Shown piece after piece: positions 10,601 through 42,299 of a stretch of DNA of 64,000 nt. Every line of letters begins with the position of its first letter. The first letter of the stretch is position 1. The notes under the pieces are model-generated. The model did not search any database and was not told where the DNA came from. It was given only the letters and a program-made list of their open reading frames with translations. Location of the stretch: the NCBI GenBank assembly GCA_026874595.1, contig CM049307.1, positions 36,746,862 to 36,810,861 on the forward strand. Reading direction: 5' to 3'. The position numbers were made by a program, and so were the translations under genes. The DNA comes from Sipunculus nudus (Eukaryota > Annelida > Sipuncula > Golfingiida > Sipunculidae).

Positions 10601-13600
10601 ACCCAAAAATTGACGGGGATCTTCCCCTCTTGTTAAGTGATCCAAAAGTGAAAGATTTTGGATGAAACATTTACAATGCCTCCACAATCTTTAACAGATG
10701 TGGGAAATGTGACCTTGACCTATGACCCCAAAATCAAAAGGAATCTTACATTAGTGGTGGGCCATATAGGTCAAGATTGAAATCCATATGTCAATCCAAA
10801 CTGGAGTTATCATCCAGAAATGAATTTTGAACAGATGGCTCTGTGACCTTAACCTTAGACCTTATGACCCAAAAATTGACAGGGATGTTGGCTGGTGAGC
10901 TTTATGTGCAAGATGGAATTTCTGGTATGCAAAGTTTTGAAAGATGTATGTCATGTGACCTTGAACTTTGACCTCATGGTCCCAAAATCAAGAGGGTTCT
11001 TGCTTTAGTGGTGGGGTATATATAATATAAGTTTGAAATCGATTTGTCAATCCAAACTGGAGTTATCATCCAGAAAAGAATTGTGGTCAGACAACCAGAC
11101 AGACAGACAGGGCGATATTACAGGGCACCCTCTTATTCAAGTGAGACCCTCAAATTAAAAGAGCCTGCCACAGTATATCTTTCCACAAAGTTTAACAAAA
11201 GAGCTAAGACAGAAGCTCGAAAAGTGGTTCAAGCAGCCCTGACTTCCAGCACCTGAAGACTTCTTGGGGAATGGATTCTTCCCCTTGTCTTTTTATACTT
11301 TTCAGATCATTTATGGTTTTGCCCAGGTCCTATACTGTTGGTTCAGCGTCTAGATCCTCCAATATCTAAAGGCCTCTGATGGCAAAAGGGCTTCATGGGA
11401 GAGATAAGAGATGTGTCCTCTGGAGCAGAGTACTAAGTAGTGTCCAACCCATCTCCCAACCTGCTTCTCCTGGTCCACCATTGTTGGTTCAGCATCTAGA
11501 TCCTCCAATATCTGCAGGCCTTTGATGACAAAAGGGCTTCATGAGAGAGATAAAGAGATGTGTCCTCTGGAGCAGAGTACTAAGTAGTGTCCAACCCATC
11601 TCCCAACCTGCTTCTCCTGGTCCACCATTGTTGGTTCAGCATCTAGATCCTCCAATATCTGCAGGCCTTTGATGGCAAAAGGGCTTCATGAGAGATAAGA
11701 GATGTGTCCTCTGGAGCAGAGTACTAAATAGTGTGCAACCCATCTCCCAACCTGCTTCTCCTGGTCCACCATTGTTGGTTTAGCATCTAGATCCTCCAAT
11801 ATCTGCAGGCCTTTGATGGCAAAAGGGCTTCATGAGAGAGATAAGAGATGTGTCCTCTTGAGCAGAGTACTAAGTAGTGTCCAACCCATCTCCCAACCTG
11901 CTTCTCCTGGTCCACCATTGTTGGTTCAGCATCTAGATCCTCCAATATCTGCAGGCCTTTGATGGCAAAAGGGCTTCATGAGAGAGATAAGAGATGTGTC
12001 CTCTGGAGCAGAGTACTAAGTAGTGTCCAACCCATCTCCCAACCTGCTTCTCCTGGTCCACCTTTGTTGGTTTAGCATCTAGATCCTCCAATATCTGCAG
12101 GCATTTGATGGCAAAAGGGCTTCATGAGAGAGATATGAGATGTGTCCTCTGGAGCAGAGTACTTAGTAGTGTCCAACACATCTCCCAACCTGCTTCTCCT
12201 GGTCCACCACTGTTGGTTCAGCATCTAGATCCTCCAATATCTGCAGGCCTTTGATGGCAAAAGGGCTTCATGAGAGAGATAAGAGATGTGTCCTCTGGAG
12301 CAGAGTACTAAGTAGTGTCCAACCCATCTCCCAACCTGCTTCTCCTGGTCCTACATTATTGGTTCAGCATCTAGATCCTCCAATATCTGCAGGCCTTTGA
12401 TGAAAAAAGGGCTTCACGAGAGAGATAAGAGATGTGTCCTCTGGAGCAGAGCAGTAAGTAGTGTCTGACTCATCTCCATTCCTGCTGTCTCCTGGTCCAC
12501 CAAGCACCTCAAAGGTTTGAAGTCGTCGGTAGCATCAGGGCTTCATGAGAGAGAGGAGAGTTGTGTCTTCTGAAGTATAGCACTAAGTAATGTCCAACCC
12601 ATCTCCCAACCTGCTTCTCCTGGTCTTTGATGACTTCCCCTGTCTTGCTCTTCATTGGGGATGGGAGCTGTTCGTACCATGCTGGGCCAAGCTGCAGGTG
12701 GCTCTCAATGCCACTCTTCCTCAAAGATCACTCTGGCTTGGATCTGCCAAAGTTTGGTAAGTGCGGCTCTCTTTAATTTGATCACTGGTTCACTTGCAGT
12801 GATATTTGCCTCAAACCTATCAGTGTTCTCTTTTTTCTTGCCATATGTTGTTATGGTGGCTTTGTTGATGTACTAAGGAAGGAGCCCTATCCTTTATTAG
12901 CACTCTGGAACTGGATCTTTGGAATAGTTTCTATGATTAATTCCTCAAACTCTGTTCTTCTCAGGGTACATAGTCTTGATGGTGTTGTGTTCGCTGTGGA
13001 AGGTGTTACTTAGTTCCTCCACTCTCGACTCAATATCTAGCTCCTTGATGATCTGCAAGTCTTTGATGGCAGGGCTTCATGACAGATGTGTCCTATGGAG
13101 TAGAGGACTAGGTAATCCAAACCTTGGACTTGAGTACTCAGTATGAAATACCTGGACTTGAGTACTCTTTTCAGCCCTAGTAGTAATGGTGGCACATTTT
13201 TTCTCATTCTCATGGGATTCTACCAAGTATTTATGGGGTATTATAACAGTGCCTTACCTTTACAGTGTCTGTGTAAAACATCTAGGGCAGCAATGAGGAA
13301 TTCATGAGCATCTTGTTGTTCATAGCCCGCTAGGTGGCGTGCATGTGTCCACACCAGATGCAGCAGGCGGTATGGTGTATGAGGTGTGCGCACTCCTGAA
13401 TAAAACTGAGAAATCATATATAAAACATTAGTTCCTGAATAAAACTGCAAAACTGTATTTAAGTTATTAGTAAACAAGGCCTACAGGCGTCATGCGAACC
13501 TGTGCAAAGTTTGGGAGTATGAATGTTTATTTTTAAAATTTAATACTGATCCTCTCATGTCCTGCATATCTACCTTAGTCATTATGATTTCAGCCAAATG

Positions 13601-16600
13601 GACGTTTCGGACCTGCATGTTTCGGACTAGGACATTTCAAACTATAATGTATCAGTCACAATATTTCTGATATGTTCTTTTATCCAGGGAGGAATACTGG
13701 GACAGATGAATGGACAATTTGGCTGCATGGTTTCGGAGAAGAACATTTAAAATGTTTTTTTAGCTTTTTCCCTAAAAATCCAAGTTCCTCTTTTAGCCTT
13801 GGTATTGAGTCACACCTATTCATGCATCTTGGCAATGGAGGCTAAGCTTTCCCCCAGGTCAAGGGTACCTAATGTCCCACATGTAACCGCACCACTGACT
13901 CTTACAGACTGAAACTTACCACTGGCTCTAACAGACTGAAACTTGACCAGTTGGCAAATCTGAAATGGTTGGCAGTCTGCCAGAGTTATTTATAGATACA
14001 GAGCGTAATTTGACCTTTTGTAAACTCTGACACAGTTAGCAGGTTCTAGACGTCTAGATGGTGTGTCTAGACACATCTTCTAGACATCTAGACTGTATCT
14101 GGACAACAGGCAGAGCCTGGTCGGTTGCCATGGTGATGTCTGGACTTTACCTGAGTGCACTGATTGACCTCTTCACTTGACATGTTGAAACTTGCCATGC
14201 TGCTAAATCTGTTTTAAAACACTGAAAGCCTTTTTCAACTGGCTACACTGCTTTTTTATAGCTGCGTTTACCGAAACTATTCTTATAAAACTGACAGAAC
14301 AATACCATAGAACAATTCTTGTAAAGTTTTAACCAATCAGCTTAACAGTTTCTTAAAAAAAACAGTTTATAAGCTAGAAGAGTCTAAACTTACATTTTTG
14401 CTTGTAAAAAAAAAACAGATCAATGTACGTGGCGCCACCAAAACCTCAATTTCAGATAAGACACGTGTGTGTGACAAACATTGGCATAAAATTTGGTGAT
14501 GACAGCTCCAGCTGTTTCTGAGATTTTAAGTTTAATATGCTTTTTTGCACAGATGATAAAGTTAAACCTCCTGTAACTCAGCCAAAAATCACAGAACTGG
14601 AGCCATTCAAACAAGTTTGCGAGAGATTGTTCTGGGGATCATTTCTGTGAAATATTGGACAATCTGGCTGGAAAGTTTCTGAGGAGAAGATTTTTATATA
14701 TTTTTTAACTTTTCCTGTATAAAATCTAAGAAAATCACTGAATCAAACCCATTTGAACAAATTTGAATTATCAACATCTCAGGATCATTCATGTGTGAGA
14801 TTTAAGAATTTGACCCAGTGTTTTTGGAAAGAAGTTCTTTGTAGCCATTGAGCAGAAATGGGCTGCTATAACATTTGACTTTATTCAGCTTCCCATAACT
14901 CCGCCAAAAGTCATTGAACAGAGACCATTTGAACAAACATAAGAAAGCACTACCATAGGAGCATTTTTGTGCAATATTAAAAAATTTGGCTTTACGCTTT
15001 CAGAGAAGAAGTTTTTTGTAGTCCTCTGTATGCTTCAGGCACCGTTCACAGCTGTACAAAAAGACCAATGCAGGTGGCGCCACCAATACCTCAATTTCAG
15101 ATATGACTGAAGTGACCAACATTAACATAAAATTTGATGATGATAGTTCCAGCAGTTTTTGAGATTGTAATTTTAGCATGCAAATGACTTAGTTCAACTT
15201 CCTGTAACTCAGTCAAAAATCACCGAACTGGAACCATTTGAACAAATTTGAGTAAGATTGTTCCATTGAACATTTCTGTGAAATACTGGACAATCTGGCT
15301 GGACAGTTTCAGAGAAGAAGATTTTAAGGTTTTTAAGCTCTCTATAAAATCTAAATTAATGCAGATACCCAATAATAATAAGCTCTATAGCACCAAGTTT
15401 CACACTGGACTAATTCTGACATGTAATTTGGAGCTGCTAGCTCCGACGGTTTCTGACTTACAGCCATGGATGGCGGACAGCCAACACTGGACGGTGGACG
15501 GACACAGCCACGCCATCGCATAAGCTCACAGGTTCGCTAAAAATATTATTGACATAAGAATATAAGAAATGTGACCCTTGAAAACCCTGAATATTACTAT
15601 AAACATTGAAATGTGTTGATTTTAGTGTTCCAGCAAACGATGGGGTACAGGAAACACAGACAGTGGCCACGTTTTATTTATGTGTAATAGTGAAATCATG
15701 GTAATACATATGGAAATCAAAATGGGATTCAAAACTTGTACCAAAATAACAGGAAAGACAGGCTGCTTCTTTTCCATTCATATTTCTTGAGTGGCAATGC
15801 ATGCACCACTGATACAGATACAGATCTATTACATATTTCATAACTACTTGTAAGTCAGAGAAAATAAAATTCAATAAAAAGAATTTTTCCCCTGCTAGTG
15901 ATGTCTAACTGATTCCTATACAAGTACAAAAGGAATTAATTAACACCTAAATGATAAATATAGAAAAAGTAGTGAGCTTTTACCTCTTGGAAGAGGCGAG
16001 ACATTTCACATACAAGACACTGTTGCGATTCTTTGAGCATTTGGCAGTTGTGGCGGTCGGCTAGGAAATAATCTCGCAGCAGTGGGGTATGTGTTAGTGC
16101 CTGAACTATACAGTTCATGAAACATGTGTTGCCCAAATTTATCAGGCCCCTGAGACCTGCAATGTAATAATATTATTAGTACACCATGTTCTAAATAGTA
16201 AAATGCAAAATGAAATGAAGTTGGTTGTTCAATTCCATAATTAACCATTAATGATAATATTTTCTTCCACACATGCTTATTCAAACCTTTCATCCAACCA
16301 TAAAAAGTTATATGAACGAAAAGAGTCTTACTGTAAGGACAGTACATATGGCATGAGTTCTATAGTATTATATCATATAACTTTATCTATTACTTATTAA
16401 AGCAAAAGCTTGCAAAGTTGACACCTGTCAGGACCTATTGGGTGTCACCATATTTTTTTTTATTTCTAAAGCCTTGTATTGTGGTGTTAAATTCCATAAA
16501 CCTTTAGATTCTAGCAGATTCTACAGCTAATGCAAAAAAGCATGGGGACAAGTAATCATGGTACACTCTTAAGTTGTCAGCATTCCTGAAACATCAGGTA

Positions 16601-19600
16601 ACATTAGTTTTAGAAGTATATAGGTGGACAGTAATGGTACATTGTTTGACAGAAGTGGTATATATCAATTGTGAAAGTACCAGTAACCTTGTAGGACAAT
16701 GTTTGACAGAAATGGCACATACCAACTGTGGATATATCAGAAAATGTGCACTGTATGTTTGACAACAATGGTATTTACAAACTGTGGAAATACCAGTAAA
16801 TCTGTCGTATAATGTCTGACAGCTATGGTACACGTCAATTTCGGAAGTAACAGTAATTGTGTATTGCAATATGTGACAGTAGTGGGTAATACCTATTGTG
16901 GAGGTACCAGTAACTTTGTAGCACAATAATGGACAGACACAGTACATATCTATTATGGATATACCTGTAAATTGTAGTACAATGTTTGACAGAAGTGGTA
17001 TATACTACAGTGAAACTCCCCTAAGCCGGACACTCAAGGGACTGGAAGATTATGTCCGTATTTGTGAGTTGTCTTGTTTAGAGGAGTTTGACATATTTCG
17101 TCAATTCATCATTGAATGTGTCTGATATCCTATGTTTTCATTAAATGTACGCCTAATTTGAAATAGGCTACATAAATTTGATTTAAATCATTTTCAAAAC
17201 AGCTTAAATATGCACTTGCAATTTATAAAATATAATTATTTAAAAAAAAAGAAAGTAATACTGGCTAGGCCTCACAAACTAATCTTGGCAGTTTCACTTC
17301 TACGTACCATGCTTCATCTTCTAAGCAAGCGGCAGTTCATGGATGGGTTGCACTTGGCATATTGTAGATTGATTATTGACAGCATCCGTGCATGATTATT
17401 TGTTAAAGGATATAGTCTTTTTTTTTTACTTTTTTTTTTGAGGTAACCTCGGCTGAGGTTCGAACTCACAATCTCCTGGCTTTGAGTCCTGCGCTCTACC
17501 CCTGAGCCACAGAAGCCAGTAAAGGATATAGTCTTTACCACGCATTCCCCATAACAAAGTACAAACAAACTATAATTACAGCTTCACGGGCCGGAAGCCT
17601 ATCCCAAGCACGAACGGTTGTTTTTGATGGTGCCCTTGTCGAATGAAAAGCTGTTTCAGTTTGAAAGCTTATTTTTTTCCAAACTGACCTGCAAATCTTA
17701 ATTTAATAATGACTTTGTTATTAACACATTTCAATACTGCATATTTACATATAACATTTACAATGGTTGACCAAATTACCCTTGTCCTCGGGCTGTCGCT
17801 TTGACCAAAACAGGCCATATGAGGTCATGACCCAGCAAATATATGAACAAAAAATAACTCACGATGTCTGTCCGCTTTAGAGGGTCGTAATATGTAATGG
17901 ATATACTGGCCGGACGGGAAAGTTTGTCCTTGGTCCGAGATAGTGAGTTGTCTGCTTTTCTGAGTTTATGTTAAACATAATATAGAGGCAAAAGTGAAGG
18001 GACTGAGGTTTAGTGTCCACATTAGTGAGTTGTCCACCTTACTGAATTGTCCGCAAGTAGGAGTTTCACTGTATTTGTGAAAGTACCAGTAATTTTGTAT
18101 TACAATATTTGACAGAAGTGGTACATACCAGTTTTTGTGGTACCAGTGACTTTGTTGGACAATGTTTAACAGAAAAGGTACATACCAATCATGGAGGTAC
18201 CAGTAATATTTAAGTATAATGTCTGACAGAAATGTCACATACCAATTGTAGAGGTACCAAAAACCTTGTATTAGAATGTTTGACAAATGTGGTACATACC
18301 AATTGTGGAGTACCAGTAAATTTGTAGTACAATGTTTGACAGAAGTTGTACATACCAATTGTGGATGTACCAGTTCTTAGTAGTACAATGTTTGATGAAA
18401 GTGGTACATATCAATGGTTGAGGTACCAGTACCCCTGTAGTATGTTTGACAGAAGTGGTACATACCAATTGTGGAGGTACTAGTAACTTTGTAGTATGTT
18501 TGACAAAAGTGGTACATACCAATTGTGGAGGTACCAGTAACTTTGTAGTATGTTTGACAAAAGTGGTACATACCAATTGTGGAGGTACCAGTAACTTTGC
18601 GTCTCTTTGGATGTTGCTGTAACAGCTCTAGCTCCCCACCAGTCGGTTCCCACTGCTGGAACAGCACACGGATACCTGCAAAACAGTCACATATTCATTT
18701 ATCAACTTGATTAAAATTCATAGCAGATATTTTTCAAATAAAGAACTAAAACATGACAGTTATACCTGCAAAACACTTGCAAAATCTCTAACCAATATCA
18801 ACCCATTAACCACAGCAACTTCATCAAATACAGAAAGTGAACAGCAAGCAAATATTATTGTATTACGAGGAGTTAAATGCTGATATACAGAACTTGTACA
18901 GCAATGTACACTTAAAGATAACTACGGACAAAACAGTCACCTTGGTTTTCATGATCCATCTGATAACTATATGACACTGTTTAGAAACAGAATCACTTTA
19001 CATTCACAACTGAAAAGTTGAGAGTGCCTACTACTATAATGATTTGTTTTCTTTATAAAGCTAATCATATTTAAACTAAGGCCCCCTTAACAAACTTATT
19101 TATATGTGAAAATCAAGAACTGGAAGGTGGACCCAGTGTTCTTCGACTTAATCTGACAATTTGGTTCATGGCTATGTACTCACAGCTTGGATCATGGTCC
19201 CTGGCTTCATATTAAACCATCCTTTCAAGATGGAAAGATGCTTATGATCATCATGTACTATAAATCACAGTTTGGTATGTTAAAGTACATATTTGTTAAA
19301 GAATTGTTTCCTACTTAATCTGCATTAGTGGAGGTGTATACTTCACTCTGATGAACAACTCAGTAAGTGGTCCATATAATTTACCACAGATAACTCACCG
19401 AGCGACTTGGCTGATAATTCCCTTTGTTCTTTTGCTATGTCCTCTAATTCTCCATCATAAATATAGTCTCCACAGGAGAAACAAAACACAGCACCATATG
19501 TAAGATCAACGGCTGAAATAAAATTATTACATAATCAGGGTTTGGTAATCTGCACCTCTAGTTCTTCATCTATGATACAAAGATTAAGTTCTTTTGTTGA

Positions 19601-40593: not shown

Positions 40594-41104
40594 TCATTGT
40601 TTACACCACATATATATTTTCCAACTACAATATGAGGCAGCTAAAAGTGATATAGACGTGTGGAGTATTTTCCTGTAGAAATCGTCTTTCCTTACTAGAA
40701 CGATGGGCGAGCTGGACGACAAAGAATCAAGTGGTAGACTTTGAAGTTTACGAGAGTCACTCTCAACCTGGTACTTGCAGCATGGGTCAAACTGCCAGGA
40801 CACGGTGTACACGCCAGTGCATACAACACTTATAAATCCCATCGGGAAATACACATGACCTTTTTCTGGCCAAGCAATGCCAGTGACCAAGCTGCCAAGA
40901 CCAGACAAAACAGCTGTTTTGTGTAAGCAGTTACCCACTGAGATCCATCGAGCAGTTTCGTCGCCAAGTTTGACGGGTTCAATTATTATTGTCTGGACCT
41001 CTGACTCCAGCGCCCTCTCCAATTCATTCTCGAAATCCTCTGAGGAGCTGTCATTCTCGTATATTTCTCTGATAACAGCATACTCAGCTGGTTCACTAGT
41101 GGGC
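40594..41104 (-). CDS. TMEM11: TMEM11 exon 2
   Basis: All but the first five codons. Acceptor TTTCAG|GCCCACTAG; stop TGA at 40596-40594 after MWCKQ. Confidence 0.95.
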
Positions 41105-42299
41105 CTGAAAGTAAATAAAAATAAAATCAAATGAAAGACAAAATCCTGAAATCTGCTATATGGCTAAAAAAGGTTAGATTTAGAAACCTGCAGATATGTA
41201 TTGATTAAATGTAAGTTATTAGGATCATTTCAAACACTTTTGACTTGTTATTAAAAAAAATAATATTAGTTTAATATATCATTTTGCGATACAGTGCCAT
41301 CATGAATTTTGTTGAAATCACATTTGTAACTGACCAACTTCAACCAAAGATTGCAATTCAGAACACGTGTCCTGTGATAAAACAGGACCCTTCATTTGCA
41401 AATACACAAAGTCAAAGATGATTACATTGGACTGAATATTTATTGTAATTTGCATGCGCAGATGACTTGTCTCCCTTAATAATGACAGTTTATTTGGGTG
41501 TGGTGGTCTCCAGATCTTTTTTGTTCTATAATCAAATTTGTTTGTAGCCAGTACTGAACATTTTTTGTGCAAATATGCATATGTTCTTGAGATAATACAG
41601 ATCCCTAGGAATTATGTCGTTTCTTTATTATCACACACTCCACACACTCAGGGCTTATGAAAATTCATTGAAATGGAAGTCTAAAGGTACTTACCAGTAC
41701 ATTACCTGTAGCTGGTGTATCTATGATTATGAAACAGGGGTCCTAGTGCAAGCAGTATTTTTATAACCATTTTATTTGACCTATCATTCTCTGGAAAATC
41801 ATGCTCTCTAAAAAGAATGTTTCCAGTTTTGTTTACAAGGTAAGTGAATTTTAAGCCACCTGAATGGCTACCTTCAAGACTACTGAATATATAATTTACC
41901 ATTACATACATACACTATTAAACATATATATATATATTTGTTCCTATGCAGCTGTTTATGTTGACTAATGTTTACTTTGTTTATTTATTATTTTTATAAA
42001 TAATAATTTGCTATACCTTGAAAATAATTGCATGATTCTGTTTTTCATGTGAAGTATATTTCTTGGACCTGGAACCCAAGGGTTTGGGTAGGGATACTCC
42101 TTGTCTGAAGGTTCTATAAATTCATTGCTTTTACTCCAGGAAAGGGTTAAGTTTTTGGTAAATCTAGTTTGGCTGCCAAAATGTATGGACATGGTAAAAT
42201 GTGGCTCTGACCCATTACTGACAGACAATACCAAAACACCCACCGACAGGAACATGCTACTGAGCACATAAGAAAAAGAATCTATATATATAATATATA

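Follow-up and report, generated by a model that had tools for sequence, protein, structure and literature searches.

A minisatellite spanning the exon 4/intron 4 boundary of USP22 repeats the splice donor in Sipunculus nudus

Tandem repeats that span an exon-intron boundary have been named "mirages" in amphioxus, and the accessible text of the report that uses this name describes donor as well as acceptor cases with units of 10-160 bp (PMC3087553). The same text describes haplotypes of a globin mirage with 6 and 3 units, homogenisation of units inside clusters that is absent at the cluster boundaries, and RT-PCR results suggesting that regular splicing is undisturbed, with the copied signals considered as sites that could serve cryptically (PMC3087553). 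Further lancelet mirages are described in a paper on PGBD5, the available sections of which state that aberrant mRNAs are not generated (PMC3902484). Mirages in troponin C and PGBD5 are cited in that paper, and the original Adh3 paper is cited here through both reports (PMC3087553; PMC3902484). In human genes located in segmental duplications, variable internal tandem repeats occur at exon-intron boundaries; according to the accessible part of that study, 27 tandem-repeat intron modifications at such boundaries, with alternative splicing, were kept, and minisatellites in this position can change how a transcript is spliced and bring cryptic sites into use (PMC2812944). For potato, the available portion of the literature describes intron gain by boundary duplication, and the available portion of a Conus paper yielded nothing on boundary minisatellites. 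The array that we describe here, in USP22, is a boundary-spanning minisatellite, of a kind already known but rarely described.

The window, that is, the whole stretch of DNA that was analysed, comprises 64,000 bases (G000:C2:36746862-36810861) of a 1.43-Gb genome. Its minus strand carries a gene that we identified as USP22 (Ubp8/nonstop family), with eight exons placed within the window, from 22089-21970 to 7647-7568, and further exons at the window edge and outside it. The joined product of the eight exons scored above the cut-offs for both zf-UBP (PF02148) and UCH (PF00443) in a profile search, and it matched 796 animal USP22 proteins at E<=0.001, of which 120 are listed. Among these 120, the closest protein is 80% identical to the joined product, and the best named relatives belong to Owenia (an annelid), Liolophura (a mollusc), Lineus (a nemertean), and Priapulus (a priapulid), with Branchiostoma much further down. 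A search of the genome with a full-length relative gave 17 matches, 11 of which are exons at this locus and 6 of which are relatives elsewhere, with 30-61% identity. Exon 4 is preceded by the acceptor TTTTGCAG and ends at 18574 with CAAAGTTACTGGTACCTCCACAATTG/GTATGT (a slash marks the splice junction), and its joining to exon 5 gives a 21-residue stretch that reads as USP22 sequence. Elsewhere in the window, positions 40597-41163 of the minus strand hold an open frame which we take to resemble TMEM11. In the assembly as a whole, we found 11 COX1-family matches (on C60, C61, C62, C66, C72, C74, C75, C89 (two), C123, and, as a short match, C5); the two that were translated (C60 and C123) look by eye like bacterial oxidases. 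Bacterial cobionts may therefore be present in the assembly, and none of the 11 matches, two of them translated, was recognised as mitochondrial COX1.

The exon 4/intron 4 boundary lies within a tandem array. As a first-pass annotation of this DNA had proposed, the repeat unit consists of the end of exon 4 (its last 26 bases), the donor, and about 27 intron bases. Tandem Repeats Finder reported the exon-proximal part of this array with a period of 54 and 9.4 copies. The annotation had confined the array to 18073..18675; the array there is real, but it extends beyond these limits and continues past a DNA transposon (Table 1). When the transposon was removed and the flanks were joined by script, one unbroken array of 16 units resulted, the consensus of which includes the last 26 bases of exon 4 exactly. 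A 29-base unit probe with <=3 mismatches matched 6 times in the window, always inside the array (mean of 0 in 100 shuffles), and a whole-genome search with 89 bases of the array returned at least 13 matches, all of them in USP22 intron 4 and its exon end. Because all of these unit matches fall at this locus and the exon residues match animal USP22, exon 4 is the likely source of the array. Judged from its sequence and from these matches, which are a minimum count, the array is built from the gene's own junction, without an origin in a dispersed repeat. The reverse order of events, in which an array already present as a dispersed satellite or mobile element overran the exon end and replaced the original coding sequence, would sit well with the 6,792 of 64,000 bases of the window that are tandem repeats, but it is disfavoured by the restriction of unit matches to this locus and by the conservation of the exon end, and we consider it very improbable.

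Table 1. Positions of the features discussed, in window coordinates (a slash marks the splice junction).
Feature	Position	Strand	Details
USP22 exon 4	18574..18675	-	102 bases; placed by junctions and homology; supplies its last 26 bases to repeat unit 1 as the exonic part
Donor GT of exon 4, presumed normal donor	18572..18573	-	TTG/GTATGT; last exon base 18574
USP22 exon 5	15984..16156	-	acceptor side joined by exon 4
USP22 exon 6	13258..13405	-	
Exon-proximal minisatellite part	18075..18599	-	units 1-9 and part of unit 10
Exon-distal minisatellite part	16643..17005	-	rest of unit 10 and units 11-16
Two possible extra in-frame 18-residue blocks	18466..18573	-	donors 18574 to 18520 to 18466; residues of donor-straddling codons included
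In-frame TAA closing the frame	18377..18379	-	stop at 18379; preceding donor 18412 is AT, without GT
DNA transposon in unit 10	17008..18071	+	terminal inverted repeats of 14 nt including TA; TA at 17006-17007 and 18072-18073
Insert of about 100 bp nested in the transposon	17421..17520		between two AAAGGATATAGTCTTT copies at 17405-17420 and 17521-17536
Second USP22 boundary duplication	13406..13444	-	exon 6 acceptor CAG/TTTTATTCAGGA; copy 39 nt upstream, open frame, +13 residues

The units differ in age and regularity with their distance from the exon. The first three spacings, counted from the exon, are 54 bp and all others are 56-57 bp, so that the exact 54-bp period previously noted holds close to exon 4 and is lost among the older units. 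Units 1-3 are 93-96% alike and units 4-16 are 54-89% alike among themselves; GT is retained in 12 of the 16 units, and the exon's own 9-mer is present in 8 of 15 scored donors (the interrupted unit 10 was left out). Near-identical copies are where repeat errors come easiest, and units 1-3 could in principle be an assembly artefact, with the array inflated or collapsed and the exon-near copies unreal. The individual differences among the other units, the presence of a transposon inside the array, and the location of the locus on a 98-Mb contig all argue against such an error, which we regard as very unlikely.

The transposon that interrupts unit 10 has relatives spread over the genome, with at least 85 matches (40 of 3,011 candidates scored). 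Both exact ends were recovered in 5 of 11 scanned loci, representing 4 distinct copies that measure 971-989 bp, three of which have TA on both sides. The nested insert is flanked by a 16-bp target duplication, and the other transposon matches listed break off near it and pick up again behind it. It appears tRNA-like by eye, and ARAGORN called no tRNA on it. Since the rejoined flanks form a continuous 16-unit array and the insert lies inside the transposon, the array is the oldest of the three, followed by the transposon and then by the insert.

The donors at 18574, 18520, and 18466 carry one and the same 9-mer, lie exactly 54 bp apart, and are separated by open frame, in agreement with the first-pass annotation on all three points. 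The use of the second or third donor could therefore add 18 or 36 residues to the protein. The residues previously written out for the +18 block proved correct, and the second block differs from the first by a G to S change. That each more distal donor would add another 18 residues had also been proposed; this stands for the donors at 18520 and 18466 and ends there, as the next donor, 18412, reads AT and the frame is closed at 18379. Reading in frame from exon 4 through the array gives 73 residues, as written out, before this stop, and donor 18356 and further donors sit past it. The ladder thus has three rungs (0, +18, and +36). Sharing a 9-mer, the three donors also share a score, which is 6.3 compared with 6.2-11.3 across the eight USP22 donors scored, and the unit 9 donor at 18129, past the stop, reaches 7.9, above the 6.3 of the real donor (all scores use approximate frequencies). 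When identical donors compete, some test systems are said to prefer the intron-proximal one, although our literature search gave no paper on this.

The older part of the array looks like the product of neutral decay. In the 13 older units, substitutions were counted at 63 of 337 sites in the exon-like part, 60 of 373 sites in the intron-like part, and 5 of 26 sites in the GT. By codon position, the counts were 18/117, 21/104, and 24/116, with no excess of changes at third positions in these units, and neither donor nor frame shows signs of having been selected. In units 1-3, the 54-bp spacing and the open frame would be compatible with selection as well; against this, a run of nine intronic codons has roughly a two-in-three chance of containing no stop. 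In all 120 listed homologues of the 796, the exon end ...[IV]G is followed directly by LRGL or by a similar motif (LQGL, LLGL), with no inserted block at the exon 4 end, and because none of the 120 is more than 80% identical, none is the product of S. nudus and the comparison is uninformative about its transcripts. No retrocopies recording past splicing were present among the 17 genome matches to the full-length relative. Hairpins are not convincing as a cause of donor choice or repeat growth: the RNA of exon 4 with three units gave a z of -1.21 (21 of 200 shuffles were as good), and single units folded as DNA gave z values of -0.88 and -0.47, with -1.92 for the plus strand (8 of 200 shuffles as good).

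USP22 contains a second boundary duplication, at the acceptor of exon 6 (Table 1). FQE is joined directly to FYSG-like residues in 112 of 112 homologues examined at this junction (120 listed). Exact 15-base copies at most 600 bases upstream accompany 121 of 3,444 AG sites on this strand of the window, and the exon 6 duplication is therefore not exceptional in so repeat-rich a stretch. The exon 4 acceptor has a 14-base copy at about -90, which is likewise within control levels (27 of 300 at >=14).

Another splice junction within an array was found in a dynein heavy-chain gene. An intron whose ends were placed by eye, at C9:46725381-46727533, consists almost entirely of a 58-bp array (locus L058 together with L085, G000:C9 about 46725610-46727545), the unit of which carries the acceptor junction TAG/GAATGCTT with about 12 bases of the exon. 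We counted about 34 copies of this junction, 26 in L058 at <=5 mismatches per 17-base probe and 8 in L085 at <=4 mismatches; the last L058 copy is the real acceptor, 14 of the 34 are exact to the probe, and others read GTGAG/AATTC. In a survey of 75 boundaries, made up of 15 USP22 ends and the 60 ends of those 30 dynein matches, out of 84, that had loci, 5 scored >=20, as did 10 of 300 intronic controls; the ends of matches give splice sites only approximately, USP22 was picked for its array, and we claim no enrichment over introns. A further 12 boundaries came from 10 of 30 kinase loci; none reached 20, the best scoring 10. Seven dynein cases scoring >=14 were inspected, with junctions placed by eye, and only L058 clearly spans its acceptor; L055, L073, and L081 appear to lie within introns, the cases of L071 (where the match contains stops) and L072 are weak, and a 92-bp array at 1273-1539 of L067 lies in a dynein intron with about 10 bases left between its end and the acceptor AG. 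Outside USP22, 1 of 72 boundaries (L058) is thus clearly spanned by an array, on inspection of scores >=14. The simple reading of these observations is that arrays are common in this genome and that splice junctions are not spared. A bolder reading is that the splicing machinery of this lineage tolerates or exploits arrays of boundary copies as a recurring gene structure, and that USP22 alleles differ in how many in-frame 54-bp blocks adjoin exon 4, so that a chromatin deubiquitinase would come in graded linker lengths with exon 6 adding a 13-residue option; we think this improbable.

These results bear on whether the repeated donors form a working set of alternatives, through which USP22 would be made with 0, 1, or 2 blocks and the linker that separates the zinc finger from the catalytic domain would be tuned to a length that depends on the allele. 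Such a function would draw on the three equal donors with their exact 54-bp spacing and open frame, on the alignment of the exon end to a gapped stretch between these two domains of a solved Ubp8-family chain, and on the second in-frame boundary duplication at exon 6. However, the older donors and frames have decayed neutrally, the fourth donor is dead and followed by a stop in frame, all 120 listed homologues lack such a block, and the accessible texts on amphioxus report mirages without disturbance of splicing (PMC3087553; PMC3902484). We therefore consider a working ladder unlikely. The array could lengthen the protein in 18-residue steps, and nothing in the sequence indicates that the extra donors are used or are kept up by selection.

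We consider it likely that the array is a neutral minisatellite derived from the gene's own splice junction and that the normal donor at 18574 is the one mainly used. The minisatellite would have been born by tandem duplication of the exon 4/intron 4 junction, an origin suggested by a unit that combines exon end, donor, and intron and by the match of that exon end to conserved animal sequence. From there, it would have expanded until some 16 units lay about 57 apart and been split by the transposon, and the units beside the exon would have been renewed in 54-bp steps, an order that we read from the sequence. The older units would then drift neutrally, with unit 1 preserved by selection acting on the protein. 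If amphioxus mirages are a guide, nearly all transcripts are most likely spliced at donor 18574. Slippage to 18520 or 18466 would yield small amounts of protein in which the linker from the zinc finger to the catalytic domain is 18 or 36 residues longer, and donors past 18412, if used, would lead to a premature stop. Counting against this explanation, the scores of the three in-frame donors are equal and fairly low, and the unit 9 donor scores higher. The preference for intron-proximal sites among identical donors, mentioned above, and the splicing changes linked to human boundary minisatellites (PMC2812944) also count against it.

Minisatellites at splice junctions are a natural test of how a site is chosen among identical copies. 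Like the amphioxus mirages, as the accessible text presents them, the USP22 array has a unit that holds exonic and intronic bases together with a splice signal, its unit length falls in the 10-160 bp range, and some of its units are homogenised (PMC3087553; PMC3902484). It differs from them in its host, which to judge from the named relatives of the protein (Owenia, Liolophura, Lineus, and Priapulus) is probably no cephalochordate, and in the three 54-bp spacings and open frame at the exon. The direction of homogenisation also differs, since units at the cluster boundary escape it in amphioxus BflGb6, according to the available sections, whereas the units on the exon side are the most alike in USP22. 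Haplotype variation and regular splicing are reported for the amphioxus mirages in the same accessible text, and the USP22 array is known from the sequence of one assembly. With the human cases it shares the position of minisatellites at exon-intron boundaries, but those cases, in the part of the study available, are recent paralogues with transcript evidence (PMC2812944), whereas USP22 is one conserved gene known from sequence. In the available accounts of intron gain by boundary duplication, a new intron arose, and none is seen at the USP22 array; the two are alike in that splice signals are carried along across the intron-exon boundary. Our literature search found splice-junction minisatellites in amphioxus and in recent human paralogues, and here one lies in a conserved chromatin gene of another animal. 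Together with a dynein intron that holds about 34 acceptor copies, the USP22 array suggests that such minisatellites may occur more widely than the amphioxus reports imply.
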